From Synechococcaceae cyanobacterium (GTDB taxonomy: Bacteria > Cyanobacteriota > Cyanobacteriia > PCC-6307 > Cyanobiaceae): DNA of 38,409 nucleotides. The stretch is taken from NCBI GenBank assembly GCA_947461705.1, contig CANHMF010000007.1, forward strand, positions 1 to 38,409. Direction: 5' to 3'. The notes below the pieces were generated by a model that searched no databases, was not told the origin of the DNA, and worked only from the letters and a program-made list of their open reading frames with translations. Positions 5,325-38,409 of the stretch are shown here, piece after piece. The number at the start of each line of letters is the position of its first letter. The stretch's first letter is position 1. Position numbers and translations under genes: made by a program.

Positions 5325-5761
5325 GGAACGGGAAGGCGGGGTATGGCCGAACCGAATCGGCGAGGCAGCCCACGATCCTATGAACTCACCTGTGACGAGC
5401 TCCAACGGCCCCTCGCCAGGACCGTGATGGGCGCGTATTGTTGTCACCAAGAACCACGAGACCCGCTGCGTTTCCCCGAACCGTCAGCGCGCGATAGCCC
5501 CCCTCTCGTCGACCCCTACAGCTTTTCCATTCACGCCAGCTCTTTTCACGATCACCGGACAGCCTTTCCCCATCGCCTCGCCGTTCTGAACGGTCTGCGG
5601 TCAGTTCGCTGCTGATCCCTCAGGCCTCTGCTTTGGCCTTCACGGTTCTGCAGTCATGGTTTTGATGGCAGGCCTGTGCCAGCCAGGTTCTTCAGCAGCA
5701 CCCCTGATCAAAGCCGGACTCCCCGGTTTTCCCCTCTTTCGTTCATCTCTCCCTGCTCCCG
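5325..5761. other. Intergenic region between divergent tig and asd
   Basis: About 437 bases without a supported gene, separating the divergent tig and asd genes and so expected to hold both promoters. The plus strand from about 5510 to 5600 is pyrimidine-rich. A perfect 13-base palindrome, CCGTTCTGAACGG, lies at 5581-5593. ORFs called here (a 62-codon extension of a shadow frame and one at 5656) have no recognisable product and run into neighbouring genes in another frame. No clear -35/-10 pair was identified on either strand; a weak CATAGGAT motif lies upstream of tig on the minus strand. Confidence 0.5.
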
Positions 5762-6853
5762 TTGACCACCGCATCTCCCCGTTCCCTGCCCCAGCGCCCC
5801 CTCAAGGTGGCCGTTCTCGGCGCCACCGGCGCCGTTGGCCAGGAACTGCTGGCGTTGCTGGCTGAGCGTCAGTTCCCTGTGGGTGAGCTGGTGCTGTTGG
5901 CCTCGCCCCGCTCCGCCGGTCAAACCTTGGAGTGGAACGGCCAGACCCTCACGATCCAGCCGGTGAGTGCCGAGGCCTTTGCGGGCGTGGATGTGGTGTT
6001 GGCGTCCGCCGGCGGCTCTGTGTCGAAGCAGTGGGCACCCGTGGCCGCTGCCGCTGGGGCTGTGGTGATCGACAACTCCAGCGCCTTCCGCATGGACGCC
6101 TCGGTGCCCCTCGTGGTGCCGGAGGTGAATCCCGAGGCGGCCTTCAGCCACAACGGCGTGATCGCCAACCCCAACTGCACCACGATCCTGATGACCCTGG
6201 CCCTGGCGCCCCTGGCCGCTCGGCGGCCCCTGCGCCGGGTGGTGGTGAGCACCTATCAGAGCGCCAGTGGTGCCGGCGCCCGGGCCATGGAGGAGCTGCG
6301 CCAGCTCAGCCAAGCGGTGCTGAATGGCGGCACCCCCGAAAGCAGCGTGTTGCCCCACTCCCTGGCCTTCAACCTGTTTCTGCACAACTCTCCCCTGCAG
6401 GACAGCGGCTACTGCGAGGAGGAGCTGAAGATGCTGAATGAGACCCGCAAGATCATGGGGCTGCCCGATCTGCGCGTGTCGGCTACCTGCGTGCGCGTGC
6501 CGGTGCTGCGGGCCCACTCCGAAGCCCTCAACATCGAATTCACGGAGCCCTTCCCCGTGGATGAGGCCCGGGATTTGTTGGCCCGGGCCCCTGGCGTGGA
6601 GTTGATCGAGGACTTTGACGCCAATCGCTTCCCCATGCCCACCGATGTGACCGGCCGCGATCCGGTGGCGGTGGGACGGATCCGCCAGGACCTGAGCGAG
6701 CCCAATGCCCTCGAGCTCTGGCTCTGCGGGGATCAGATCCGGAAGGGCGCTGCCCTCAATGCCATTCAGATTGCCGAACTGCTTCTCGATTCAGCCCAGG
6801 CACCGGCACCGGCTGTTGCTGACACAACGTCTGTTTTGGGGATCACCGCGTGA
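5762..6853 (+). CDS. asd: Aspartate-semialdehyde dehydrogenase
   Basis: Makes aspartate semialdehyde from aspartyl phosphate with NADPH, the branch point to lysine/diaminopimelate, threonine and methionine. The nucleotide-binding [11 protein letters not shown] lies near residue 20. The catalytic Cys is in [10 protein letters not shown] (about residue 140). Later conserved segments are [33 protein letters not shown] and [19 protein letters not shown]. At 363 residues it is slightly long because of the C-terminal Ala/Pro tail. The start is a TTG at 5762: the upstream in-frame stop is at 5705 and no ATG or GTG lies between them. The stop overlaps the GTG start of dapA (GTGA), indicating an asd-dapA operon. 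Confidence 0.97.
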
Positions 6854-7770
6854 CCAGCAGCCCCCTCCGCCCCGGATCTCTCTCCCCGGCCCCCTTTGGC
6901 CGGGTGCTCACCGCCATGGTGACCCCCTTCGCCCCCGATGGCACCGTGGACCTGCCCCTGGCGGCCCGCCTGGCCAGCCATCTGGTGGATCACGGCTCCG
7001 ATGGCCTGGTGTTGTGCGGCACCACCGGTGAATCGCCCACCCTCAGCTGGCATGAACAGCATCAGCTGTTCTCGGCGGTGAAGGCTGCGGTGGGCAACCG
7101 TGCCCAGTTGCTGGCTGGCACCGGCAGTAACTGCACGGCAGAGGCGGTGGAGGCCATTGCCGAGGCTGCCGCCCTGGGCGCCGACGGTGCCCTGGTGGTG
7201 GTGCCCTACTACAACAAGCCTCCCCAGGAGGGCCTTGAGGCCCATTTCCGGGCCGTGGCCGCTGCAGCGCCCCAGCTGCCGCTCATGCTTTACAACATCC
7301 CCGGTCGCACCGGCTGCAGCCTGTCGGCGGACACCACGGCGCGGCTCATGGATCTGCCCAATGTGGTGAGCTTCAAGGCCGCCAGCGGCACCACCGAGGA
7401 GGTGAGCCAGCTGCGGGCCGCCTGCGGTGAGCGCCTGGCCATTTACAGCGGCGACGATGGCCTCACCCTGCCGATGCTCGCCGTGGGTGCCGTGGGCGTG
7501 GTGAGTGTGGCCAGCCATGTGGCCGGCGATCAGATCCAGGCCATGGTGCGGGCCTTCCTGGCCGGCGATCTGGCCTCCGCCCTGGCCGTGCACGAGCAGT
7601 TGCTGCCGCTCTGCAAGGCCCTGTTCTGCACCACCAATCCCATCCCCGTGAAAGCCGCCCTGGAGCTCAGCGGCTGGGCCGTGGGTGCCCCCCGACTTCC
7701 CCTTGTTCCCGCTTCAAGCGACGTGCGCGACCGACTCACTTCCGTCCTGGCAGCCCTGCGTCCTACCTGA
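6850..7770 (+). CDS. dapA: 4-hydroxy-tetrahydrodipicolinate synthase
   Basis: Condenses pyruvate with aspartate semialdehyde, the first committed step towards diaminopimelate for peptidoglycan and lysine. It has 306 residues and starts at a GTG overlapping the asd stop by four bases. TIM-barrel motifs: GTTGESPTL (pyruvate carboxylate binding), [11 protein letters not shown] with the catalytic Tyr, YNIPGRTG, and the Schiff-base Lys in VVSFKAASG where many relatives have IKEAS. The GDD in [11 protein letters not shown] is also typical. Sitting directly after asd, it consumes that enzyme's product, so translational coupling makes metabolic sense. The next gene, rnj, starts 97 bases further on. 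Confidence 0.97.
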
Positions 7771-34050: not shown

Positions 34051-35595
34051 TCAGCCGGCCGCCAGGGCCTCATCGCGGTGTTTCTGCAGGGTGGCCTTGG
34101 GCAGGGGGCCTTCGAGATGCTCCCAGGGGAGAACGCGATCGGGCCTCCAGCTGGCGTGGATCACGTCGTCCCAGCCGGGTAGCGCGGGCGTTGCGTCCTT
34201 CGCCATCTCTCGGTAGGCCTTCTTCCAGCCCCCCAGGCTTTCGTGGCTGCCGCGGGCCGCGGCGATCACCGGTGCCAGGCGGCGGTCGCTGCGGGAGAGC
34301 AGGGCCTGGATCACGCTCCAGCCGTAGCTCTCGGGCCGCAGCTCGATGCCCTTGGGCTTGAGCCGCTTGGCCAGCAGCTTGAGCCGCTTGTCGGCTTCGG
34401 GGCGCACGCCTTCCCATTGGAAGGGGGTGTGGGCCTTGGGCACGAAGGTGCTCACCCCGAAGGAGAGTCGCAGACCGGGGGTGGCCTTCTTGAGATCCAG
34501 CAGCAGCTGGGCCGTGGCCTCCACGTCGGCCTCGTCTTCGCTGGGCAGCCCCACCATCCCGTAGAGCTTCAGGCCCGTGAGGCCCCCCTCCTTGGCGTAG
34601 CGGGCTGCGGCATAGATCTCCTCGGTGGCCAGCTTTTTGTTCACCACCTCCCGCATCCGCTCGCTGCCGCTCTCGATGGCGATCGTGAGCGACTTACTGC
34701 CGCGCTTGGCCAGGATGCGGCCCAGCTCGGGCGTCACGGTGGCGGCCCGTACCGAGCTCACGCTCACGCGGGTGCCATCGAAGCGGTCCTGGTCGAGCCA
34801 GGCCAGCAGGTCGGCGAACTGGGGGTGCTGGGTCACCGAGGCTCCCAGCAGCCCCAGGCGCTGGGTGGCACCGAGCCCTTTCTCCACGGCCGGGATCAGG
34901 CCATCGTCGAGGCTGGGGGTGCGGAAGGGCAGGGTGAGGTAGCTCGCCAGGCAGAAGCGGCACAGCTCCGGACAGCTGCGCACCACTTCCACCATGTGGA
35001 TGGAGGGCCAGGCCGCCTCCGGGGTGATCACCGTGGAGTGGCTGAGGGTGTTGCCGCGCCAGGTTTGTTTGGCCGTGGTGGCAGGGATGCCCGGTTCTGT
35101 GGGCTCAACTCCCAAGAGATCGCCCTCGCTGGAGTAGCGGGGGGCATAGAGGCTCGGCACGTACACCCCCGGCACCTGGGCCAGTCGCCGCAGCCGCTCG
35201 GGCCTGGGGGCTTCCCGGCACTCCTGCAGCGCTTCCACAAAGGCGGGCAGGAGCAGCTCACCATCCCCCAGCAACACCGCATCAAAGAAAGGGGCCAGGG
35301 GCTCAGGGTTGGCCGTGAGCACCGGGCCGCCCCCGAACACGATTGGATCGGCATTGCCCCGCTGGCTGGCCCAGATCGGGATGCGTTGCTGCTCCAGCAG
35401 GTCCAGCAGCACCGGCCCGTCGAGTTCCCAGCTCAGCGACAGGCCGAACAGGTCGCAGTGGCGGTGCGGTGGGTCGCCTTGGTCGGTGAACAGGCGCCGC
35501 ACATCCACATCAGGCCGCTGGGCCAGGGTGGCCCACACCACCTGATATCCCAGGCTGGTGATCCCCACGGTGTAGGTGCTGGGGAAGGCCAGCAC
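34051..35595 (-). CDS. B12-binding-domain radical SAM protein
   Basis: A predicted radical SAM enzyme with an N-terminal cobalamin-binding-like domain (LAFPSTYTVGITSLGYQVVWATL to DPIVFGGGPVLTANPEPL) and a radical SAM core whose cluster motif is CPELCRFC (VRSCPELCRFCLASYLTLPFR, about residue 215). Further on are LTIAIESGSERMREVVNKKL and LKLYGMVGLPSEDEADVEA. The motif spacing and the size of about 514-530 residues agree with the uncharacterised TIGR03960-like group common in cyanobacteria; the substrate is unknown, although related enzymes modify RNA or make cofactors. The listed GTG (35595) is the only standard start, but in-frame coding looks to continue upstream to two CTG codons (35637/35640) preceded by AGGAA. 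It converges on the polymerase-like gene with three bases between stops. Confidence 0.9.
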   Translation of the reverse strand: MLAFPSTYTVGITSLGYQVVWATLAQRPDVDVRRLFTDQGDPPHRHCDLFGLSLSWELDGPVLLDLLEQQRIPIWASQRGNADPIVFGGGPVLTANPEPLAPFFDAVLLGDGELLLPAFVEALQECREAPRPERLRRLAQVPGVYVPSLYAPRYSSEGDLLGVEPTEPGIPATTAKQTWRGNTLSHSTVITPEAAWPSIHMVEVVRSCPELCRFCLASYLTLPFRTPSLDDGLIPAVEKGLGATQRLGLLGASVTQHPQFADLLAWLDQDRFDGTRVSVSSVRAATVTPELGRILAKRGSKSLTIAIESGSERMREVVNKKLATEEIYAAARYAKEGGLTGLKLYGMVGLPSEDEADVEATAQLLLDLKKATPGLRLSFGVSTFVPKAHTPFQWEGVRPEADKRLKLLAKRLKPKGIELRPESYGWSVIQALLSRSDRRLAPVIAAARGSHESLGGWKKAYREMAKDATPALPGWDDVIHASWRPDRVLPWEHLEGPLPKATLQKHRDEALAAG

Positions 35596-35645
35596 CGCCC
35601 GCAGCGCTCCGGCTGCGGGTTGGGCGGGCTCAAACAGCAGGGTTT

Positions 35646-35682
35646 CCTGGTTCAGGGAGCGATCAGAACGGTTGGAACCAGG
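35646..35682. repeat. Inverted repeat upstream of the radical SAM gene
   Basis: CCTGGTTC at 35646-35653 and its exact complement GAACCAGG at 35675-35682, with a 21-base spacer. It lies in the 5' leader of the minus-strand radical SAM gene, immediately before the AGGAA that may serve its CTG start. It could be a protein-binding site or an mRNA hairpin; no T run follows. Confidence 0.5.
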
Positions 35683-35784
35683 CTCTCACCTGGCCTTGCT
35701 CAGAGGCTCCAGGCCACGCCATCGATCACGTAGCCACGGGACGGGACGAACGGAGCATCCCCGGCAGCGGCTGAGAAGCCATAG

Positions 35785-36093
35785 GTGGACGATCTGACGG
35801 GCAGTTTCAGTCTTGGTTCCACGGTCTTGATCGGGGACCTTGATACAGGACAGCAAGCGAAGATTCGTTTTCCCGATGATCGGGATTCCTTGCTAACTCA
35901 TGCTGCCCTTACGGGATCTGGGCGAATCGCGGCAGCAGCCATACCATCGCCGGCGGCGGTGAAGAAGCGCTGTGGCCAAGGATGCGACAAGGTGGGGTTG
36001 GTTTGTGTCTACCTGGTCGATGAGGGTGCAGTGACAGGTTGTTTTCCGGCTGCGCCACCTACCCGTATCGCAATCGCGAGCGGGTCGATCTGA
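35785..36093 (+). CDS. Doubtful ORF in low-GC gap
   Basis: A 102-codon open frame from a GTG at 35785. The N-terminal half (GSFSLGSTVLIGDLDTGQQAKIRFPDDRDSLL) reads like a real beta-rich protein; the second half is Cys- and Ala-rich (KKRCGQGCDKVGLVCVYLVDE) and not protein-like in any family I know. There is no clear ribosome binding site. It overlaps the putative minus-strand gene remnant (35700-35822). It ends 34 bases before the TTG start of the C39-like gene, on the same strand. Either a small lineage-specific gene or chance; the latter is slightly more likely. Confidence 0.25.
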   Translation: MDDLTGSFSLGSTVLIGDLDTGQQAKIRFPDDRDSLLTHAALTGSGRIAAAAIPSPAAVKKRCGQGCDKVGLVCVYLVDEGAVTGCFPAAPPTRIAIASGSI

Positions 36094-36127
36094 TTAGTCG
36101 TTTTTTGGGGGATTTAGTGTAGGTGGC

Positions 36128-37153
36128 TTGACTTCGCTGGATTTCGTGGCGAAGCTTGGAGATCTGCTCGTTTCAGAGCTTTGCATGGGTGAGTCAATGG
36201 CCTCGCAAAGGCTCAGCATGGATAGCGTGACGGGTCTGCCTACTGATGCTGTGCAAGGGCTGCTGATTCGTGAGCAGTGGGATAGTAACTGGGGCTATTG
36301 CGGTGAAACAAGTCTGATTGCGGCCGGCATGACATTTGGCCAATACGCCTCGCAGTTCACGGTCAGAGAGCTGGCCTCTCCGGGCATTCCCCAGGTCAAC
36401 GAAGCATCTCAGTTGCTCCTGGGGGTCAATGACGAAGTGGCAGCTCGCGCCATGCATTTAATGGCCAGCGAATACAGCAGCTCGGGCAACCCGCCGGGCC
36501 GGGCAAGAGAGCGTGGGTTTCTCACCTGGATTCGCGATCGGATTGATTCGGGTGCAAGGGTAGTCCTGGGTGTCTATATCAAGGCTGCACATGATGCCGA
36601 GTATGACCATATTGTGCCGGCTGTTGATGTTGTGACTGGTGGCGTCAAGGCAGGTCGATCTTCGCTTAAGGACCGATTCTTCTTTGCGGATAACTATGGC
36701 CAGCTTCTGAGTGGCAGGTTTCGCAATCTTCTGCGTGACCGCCGTGCTGCGAATGCGTCATCAGCTCCGCCCTATTCAATACCCAGCGGTGTCAAGAACT
36801 ATGCAGTGGCGATCGGCGGAGTTGCCGATCGCGATCAAGTAACCATCCCCGTGAGGCTTCAAGCGAGTCGTAACGATGAGCCCGTGCTGTCTGAAGCTGC
36901 TGTGCATCCACCCACTCCGGAGCCGCTTGGGATCCGTGCAACGGTTTTGATTGCCGATCAGAATCAGAGTTATAATGTTTACCGCTACGACGACTTCGGC
37001 AAAGTACCAGAAGCTTCTTTCAATGCTGCTGCCGCTAATGCCATTCAGTCTTGGGTGATCCCCGCCCATTCAGGTGGGTCTGTGTCCTTCGATATCGATG
37101 TTCTAACCAGCGATACTGTCGTGTTTCGTGCTGTCCCGAGCACTGCCCTCTAA
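36128..37153 (+). CDS. Papain/C39-like cysteine peptidase-fold protein, orphan
   Basis: A 341-residue protein not assigned to a named family. Residues about 45-195 carry a papain-like arrangement: REQWDSNWGYCGETSLIAAG with Cys58 at the head of a helix and Gln50 before it, His161 in YDHIVPAVDV, and Asp188/Asn189 in FFADNYG, as in C39-like peptidases. The C-terminal 120 residues (VKNYAVAIGGVADRDQVTIPVRL to SDTVVFRAVP) look all-beta and may form a sandwich; SYNVYRYDDFGKVPEASFN is a striking segment. No signal peptide or membrane helix. The TTG at 36128 follows AGGTGG and an in-frame stop at 36095; ATG at 36185 is an alternative. GC is visibly lower than in the neighbours, and codons such as TTG, ATA and AGT are commoner, suggesting transfer. 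I have an unverified impression that similar proteins occur in some eukaryotic microbes. Whether it cleaves peptides or another bond is unknown. Confidence 0.72.
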   Translation: MTSLDFVAKLGDLLVSELCMGESMASQRLSMDSVTGLPTDAVQGLLIREQWDSNWGYCGETSLIAAGMTFGQYASQFTVRELASPGIPQVNEASQLLLGVNDEVAARAMHLMASEYSSSGNPPGRARERGFLTWIRDRIDSGARVVLGVYIKAAHDAEYDHIVPAVDVVTGGVKAGRSSLKDRFFFADNYGQLLSGRFRNLLRDRRAANASSAPPYSIPSGVKNYAVAIGGVADRDQVTIPVRLQASRNDEPVLSEAAVHPPTPEPLGIRATVLIADQNQSYNVYRYDDFGKVPEASFNAAAANAIQSWVIPAHSGGSVSFDIDVLTSDTVVFRAVPSTAL

Positions 37154-37194
37154 GGGGTTGTCTGGCCGCCACTTTCTTGGAGGATTCCTGTGCC

Positions 37195-38409
37195 TCACAC
37201 CTCCGCGAGCACCTTCGCCTCCTCCTCGGAAGTCACCACCCGGCCGGCATCCTCGAAGCCTTCGATCTGATCGAAGTTGAGGTAGCGGTAGAGCTCGGCG
37301 CCCTTGGGATCGATCTTGGCGGCGGCGATGGCCAGGTATTGCTCCTTGGTGGGGATGCGGCCCAGCTGCGCACACACCGCCGCCAGCTCGGCGCTGCCCA
37401 GGTACACCTGGGAGCCGTTGCCGAGGCGGTTGTTGAAGTTGCGGGTGCTAGTGGAGAACACGGTGGTGTTGTCCTCCACCCGTGCCTGGTTGCCCATGCA
37501 CAGGGAGCAGCCGGGCATCTCCATGCGTGAGCCGGCCTTCTCGAAGATGGCGTAGTAGCCCTCCTGTTTGAGCATCTCCTCATCCATGCGGGTGGGCGGG
37601 CAGACCCACAGGCGTGCACTGTTTTCGCCCTGGCCTTCCAGCACTGTGGCGGCGGCGCGGTAGTGGCCGATGTTGGTCATGCAGGAGCCGATGAACACCT
37701 CGTCGATGGGCTTGCCTGCTTCCTCGGAGAGCAGCTTGACGTTGTCGGGGTCGTTGGGGCAGGCCAGGATCGGCTCGGTGATGGCATCGAGATCGATCTC
37801 GATCACAGCCGCGTATTCGGCATCGGCGTCAGCCTCCAGCAGCTGGGGATCGGCCAGCCAGGCCTCCATGGCCTTGATACGGCGTGCGAGGGTGCGGGCA
37901 TCGCCATAGCCACGGGCGATCATGTTTTTCAACAGCGCCACATTGCTGCGCAGGTATTCGCTCACCGTGTCCACCGAGAGCTTGATGGTGCTGCCGGCGC
38001 AGGAGCGCTCGGCGGTGGCGTCGGTGAGCTCAAAGGCTTGCTCGAGCTTCAGATCGGGCAGGCCCTCGATCTCCATGATTCGGCCGTTGAACACGTTCTG
38101 TTTGCCTTCCTTGGCCACGGTGAGCAGGCCCTGCTGAATCGCCACGTAGGGGATGGCATTCACCACATCGCGCAGGGTCACGCCCGGCTGCAGCGAGCCG
38201 GAGAACTTCACCAGCACCGATTCGGGCATGTCGAGCGGCATGGCGCCGATGGCGGCGGCGAAGGCCACCAGGCCCGAGCCGGCTGGGAAGGAGATGCCTA
38301 GGGGGAAGCGGGTGTGGCTGTCGCCGCCGGTGCCCACGGTGTCGGGCAGGAGCATGCGGTTGAGCCAGCTGTGGATGATGCCGTCGCCGGGGCGCAGGGC
38401 CACACCGCC
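37195..38409 (-). CDS. acnB: Aconitate hydratase B (partial, 5' end outside window)
   Basis: TCA-cycle aconitase of the bacterial AcnB type, converting citrate to isocitrate through a 4Fe-4S cluster. About 404 codons of the C-terminal part are present, with the reading frame open to the window edge. Cluster and active-site segments are clear: [39 protein letters not shown] (one cluster Cys) and [15 protein letters not shown] (two Cys), then [27 protein letters not shown]. The C-terminus [13 protein letters not shown] is complete. Its stop is 42 bases from that of the C39-like gene, with which it converges; no hairpin terminator was seen in that gap. Confidence 0.98.

Follow-up and report, generated by a model that had tools for sequence, protein, structure and literature searches.

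A putative C39-like cysteine hydrolase gene inserted beside acnB in a Synechococcaceae cyanobacterium

The C39 peptidases of bacteriocin exporters (PF03412; MEROPS C39) are among the described enzymes closest to the gene considered here. One of them, the protease LahT, has a solved structure, in which Cys27 is on helix 1 and the histidine and aspartate (His101 and Asp117, 16 residues apart) are on strands 4 and 5 (PMC6363468). Non-catalytic C39-like domains also occur in type I exporters (PMC6363468).

The window, by which we mean the whole stretch of 38,409 nucleotides that was analyzed, comes from a draft genome of 2.24 Mb with a completeness of 89%. Its gene content suggests a Cyanobium-type picocyanobacterium. 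We predict that one of its genes encodes a two-domain cysteine hydrolase of an exported type, consisting of a papain/C39_2-like catalytic domain and a C-terminal beta-sandwich, and that the window copy was acquired recently without an export signal. The probability that we assign to this reading is about 0.75.

The gene and its insertion site

The features at and around the gene are as follows (positions are those of the window).

34051-35595, minus strand: flanking gene for a radical SAM protein (Radical_SAM_N2, from Pfam), conserved in position in 15 genomes
35785-36115, plus strand: decayed remnant of a resident hotspot gene (a 102-aa ORF and a second frame), recognized by comparison with the intact gene of locus L057
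36122-36157, plus strand: last approximately 12 codons of the resident gene, GGLTSLDFVAKL, with an in-frame read-through into the insert
36128-37153, plus strand: the ORF as first described, with a TTG start, 341 aa and an intact reading frame
36197-37153, plus strand: most likely coding part of the cysteine-hydrolase-like gene (alternative ATG at 36185); homology to L004 and L005 begins downstream of 36197
37195-38409, minus strand: 3' part of the flanking aconitase gene (acnB-like; Pfam Aconitase), with full-length matches that are 92-98% identical across the genus

A preliminary description of the locus had reported an intact ORF with three motifs resembling those of papain-fold enzymes. 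Both the ORF and the motifs (GYCGE, EYDHIVP and ADNYG, at the residues given for them) are real. The TTG start at 36128 is another matter: it overlaps the tail of the decayed neighboring gene and is probably too early. The true start is probably either ATG 36185 or ATG 36197, which would give a protein of 322 or 318 aa, and a GGTGAG ribosome-binding-like site can be read directly before ATG 36197. Because the TTG sits in the neighbor's tail, residues 1 to 10 or so of the 341-aa version are outside the family.

Compared with L057, the remnant of the neighbor consists of two pieces that overlap and lie in separate frames: one has 47% amino acid identity over 87 aa, and the other, which contains one internal stop, has 49% over 69 aa. 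Positions 36122-36157 have 83% DNA identity over 35 bp (E 5e-5). The L057 gene, from the equivalent gap of another genome of the genus, ends in GGLTPLDFVAQL-stop, beside acnB, and the ends of the L055 and L062 genes are similar. Since the resident tail ends at 36157 and the acnB-side homology picks up again at 37195, the inserted piece is about 36158-37194. The resident gene itself (VDDLTGYFSL...GGLTPLDFVAQL) has no Pfam match in its L057 copy; it looks intact in the relatives (L055, L057 and L062) and is decayed in the window.

Fifteen further genomes of the genus have the end of acnB and the start of the radical SAM gene in this order, separated by a spacer that ranges from 67 bp to approximately 4.5 kb and contains varied ORFs. 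This gap is a place where the genus swaps single genes. Its cargo (window 35595-37195; L050-L064) includes chloride-channel-like and PIN-domain-like proteins, which were named by eye.

The base composition of the insert is also distinctive, and the low-GC pocket mentioned in the preliminary description is real. The GC content is 0.555-0.594 over 35.5-37.5 kb (0.555 in the 36-37 kb step) versus about 0.63-0.73 elsewhere in the window, and the GC3 of the cysteine gene is 0.55 versus 0.88 in both the radical SAM and aconitase genes. The gene is horizontally acquired, with foreign codon usage, and is a recent insertion in the acnB/radical-SAM hotspot.

Relatives and export signals

The gene had been called an orphan, a term that holds within the genus, where it is present in one of the 25 genomes, but fails beyond it, where relatives occur in the same taxonomic family and in other phyla. 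The search at the family level found matches in four of 400 genomes, the window's own included (the others are G041, G091 and G475, the last with a copy truncated by a contig end), and in a broader sample of the phylum the window genome is alone (1/339). Matches were found in 12 of 299 genomes of the class Thermoleophilia, to which the L002 genome belongs, and in three of 297 genomes of the corresponding phylum sample, all three already present in the class search. Plasmid pOV14c of Ensifer adhaerens OV14 has two near-identical copies (L003, 8001-8936, and L006, 8001-8939) about 32 kb apart; both share the same in-frame internal TAA, and the plasmid table lists no gene there. The duplication probably postdates the stop. 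Searching plasmids with the complete L002 protein yielded mainly RTX repeats and not the catalytic domain.

No family member was found in a phage collection, in IMG/VR or in four scans of viral contigs. When tested as a defense or phage protein, the gene had no PADLOC match and one insignificant PHROG match (E 0.096). A phage origin is unsupported, there being no relative in the phage collection or the viral contigs.

In the phylogenetic tree G041 and G475 form a cluster with Ensifer (100/99) that is separate from the window, G091 and the Thermoleophilia members. Pairing of the window protein with that of G091 is not supported, and a long branch (1.24 changes per site) leads to the window protein. 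The tree grouping and the patchy distribution together point to repeated horizontal transfer. At the G041 locus (L028, 2949-7082) a membrane-fusion-like gene and a gene for a C39-bearing ABC exporter lie approximately 2.2 kb from the family member, which is probably a coincidence; this type of neighborhood is absent from the other loci examined.

The preliminary description also noted that there is no signal peptide. This is correct for the window copy but not as a trait of the family, in which the lack is limited to the window copy and one relative. By hydropathy and inspection, the Thermoleophilia members, L005 and the Ensifer copies have a hydrophobic signal segment ahead of the domain, and in several of them this segment includes a lipobox-like LSGC. 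Every relative inspected at its N-terminus has an export signal except L004, the G091 copy; in L014 the signal sits further upstream in its ORF. The L002 protein (5677-7281, Thermoleophilia) has RTX nonapeptide repeats between the signal peptide and the catalytic domain (Pfam HemolysinCabind, E 1e-26), an arrangement that seems unusual for an enzyme of the C39-like type, and by inspection L014 has RTX-type repeats in the same place.

These patterns can also be read in another way, namely that the window copy is a dead or dying passenger, which lost its signal peptide and promoter when it was inserted in the hotspot and is still open by chance. The recent insertion beside a decayed gene, the missing export signal, the long branch and the restriction to a single genome of the genus would all fit such a history. 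Two observations make us regard it as possible but not favored: about 320 codons have stayed open at 56% GC with all of the invariant residues retained, and the G091 copy, to which the window protein is most similar, is likewise devoid of a signal peptide and yet has a GC3 of 0.89, as if it had long been kept there. Rather doubtful, in our opinion, is a reading in which the proteins are a separate family of exported papain-fold enzymes with their own C-terminal beta domain, spread horizontally between distant phyla, and with an activity other than ordinary peptide hydrolysis (e.g., cross-linking, or an amidase acting on a surface polymer).

Catalytic residues and family identity

The domains and proposed catalytic residues of the window protein are as follows.

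36260-36760, plus strand: papain/C39-like catalytic domain (approximate limits), from a profile alignment to Peptidase_C39_2 and the invariant triad
36299-36301, plus strand: proposed nucleophile, Cys58 (GYCGE), invariant in 13/13 members
36608-36610, plus strand: proposed general base, His161 (EYDHIVP), invariant in 13/13 members
36689-36691, plus strand: proposed third residue, Asp188 (ADNYG), invariant in 13/13 members
36770-37150, plus strand: C-terminal beta-rich domain ending FRAVPSTAL, conserved in all members

Cys58 and His161 had been proposed as catalytic, together with either Asp188 or Asn189, and the invariance of Cys58, His161 and Asp188 in all 13 aligned members agrees with this proposal as far as these three are concerned. 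Asn189 is not conserved. Because the position after the aspartate varies (Asn, His or Leu), the third catalytic residue is Asp, not Asn. Likewise invariant in the 13-member alignment are a Gln eight residues before the Cys, a Trp, the block GYCGE and, in the C-terminal part, the block RAVP. The stretch from Cys to His is 103 residues in the window protein and up to 118 in relatives, and the distance from His to Asp is 16 residues in four members (L015-L018).

Intact close pairs of relatives have dN/dS values of 0.14-0.34, which indicates that the family is under purifying selection; the window copy itself has no close relative. A random ORF was considered and rejected, as homologues with 38-46% identity to the window protein keep the Cys, His and Asp and dN/dS is low between the intact relatives.

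A different suggestion would be that the protein is a pseudoenzyme, with a non-catalytic papain fold, or that it has some other fold, with the Cys and His binding a ligand or metal. There is a precedent in the non-catalytic C39-like domains of type I exporters (PMC6363468), but those domains have no such Cys. In the present family all three of Cys, His and Asp stay invariant across a deep divergence, and we consider the suggestion improbable.

Scans against Pfam, NCBIfam, PHROGs and PADLOC and sequence searches of the PDB gave no significant match (Pfam and the PDB were also tried with profiles). The Pfam model for Peptidase_C39_2 (PF13529) matches two other genes of the same genome and leaves the window gene unmatched at E values up to 10. 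A more sensitive comparison was made between the profile of the catalytic domain and profiles built from the genome matches to three Pfam families. The best match, of moderate strength, was to Peptidase_C39_2, with a score of 32.1 and a probability of 52%, the confident part being about 40 columns around the His; the controls scored at most 25.4 (160 column shuffles), 13.8 (reversed alignment) and at most 22.7 (unrelated real families). In an extended alignment the Gln, Cys and His are each in register. Against the ABC-type C39 profile the score was 25.2, and none of 100 shuffles exceeded 19.1; on the same scale, the C39_2 and C39 profiles score 70 against each other (97.5%).

The transglutaminase-like alternative of the preliminary description, i.e., an enzyme that cross-links or deamidates proteins, would share the Cys-His-Asp order, and transglutaminases are distant structural kin of papain, but we judge it highly improbable, because the comparison with Transglut_core (PF01841) scored 13.5 (probability 0.3%), under several shuffles (maximum 23.7), and the PF01841 matches in its genome do not include the window gene. 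A bacteriocin-processing C39 unit had already been dismissed from the sequence and is rejected: searching its genome with PF03412 does not recover the window gene, which has no ABC domain, and its flanking genes are those for radical SAM and aconitase proteins.

The suggestion of an undescribed cysteine hydrolase family is supported by the invariant triad and the Peptidase_C39_2 match; since the Pfam, NCBIfam and PADLOC models all miss the family, the label is a fair one. A literature search for the family or its motif found no paper on either and no enzymatic data for any member.

AlphaFold2 obtained no fold for the whole protein with two sequences, those of the window and L002 (pLDDT 33). 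The C-terminal domain alone gave a low-confidence beta-sandwich (pLDDT 58, pTM 0.59), and a Foldseek search with this model gave no significant match (best E 0.019, TM 0.41-0.45), so that no homology is drawn from it.

Predicted activity and comparison with known families

As a two-domain cysteine hydrolase, the protein would work as follows. The N-terminal domain is predicted to have a papain fold resembling Peptidase_C39_2, in which Cys58 would attack an amide (or ester) bond while His161 activates and Asp188 orients; the conserved Gln50, which precedes the Cys by eight residues, may contribute to holding the oxyanion. The C-terminal approximately 125 residues presumably form a beta-sandwich that probably serves in binding or packing. 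Because most of the relatives have a Sec or lipoprotein signal, the ancestral role was probably the extracytoplasmic cleavage of peptide or amide bonds. The window copy, a recent arrival between the decayed resident gene and acnB and without an export signal, may be in the process of being lost.

The window gene is a member of a rare and so far unnamed bacterial family without a Pfam model. This family is plausibly a new one among enzymes, but it is no new kind of system. The finding would overturn nothing, as this kind of enzyme is already familiar. A family defined by tested residues and about 17 sequences means that proteins now listed as hypothetical can be annotated and assayed.

Among the known families, transglutaminase-like core proteins (PF01841) have the same Cys-His-Asp order and no profile similarity. 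The C39 peptidases of bacteriocin exporters, including LahT, have the Cys-His-Asp triad, and some members of the new family even share the LahT spacing of 16 between His and Asp; the window gene differs in having no ABC transporter domain and is missed by the PF03412 model. Peptidase_C39_2 is the most similar of the three and has the same order, Gln...Cys...(G-x-x-V-hydrophobic-G)...H-I-V...D. The window gene has a longer stretch from Cys to His and its own C-terminal domain, and the Pfam model misses it. We conclude with moderate confidence that the protein is a papain-fold cysteine hydrolase of the C39-like type, which belongs beside PF13529 rather than inside it.
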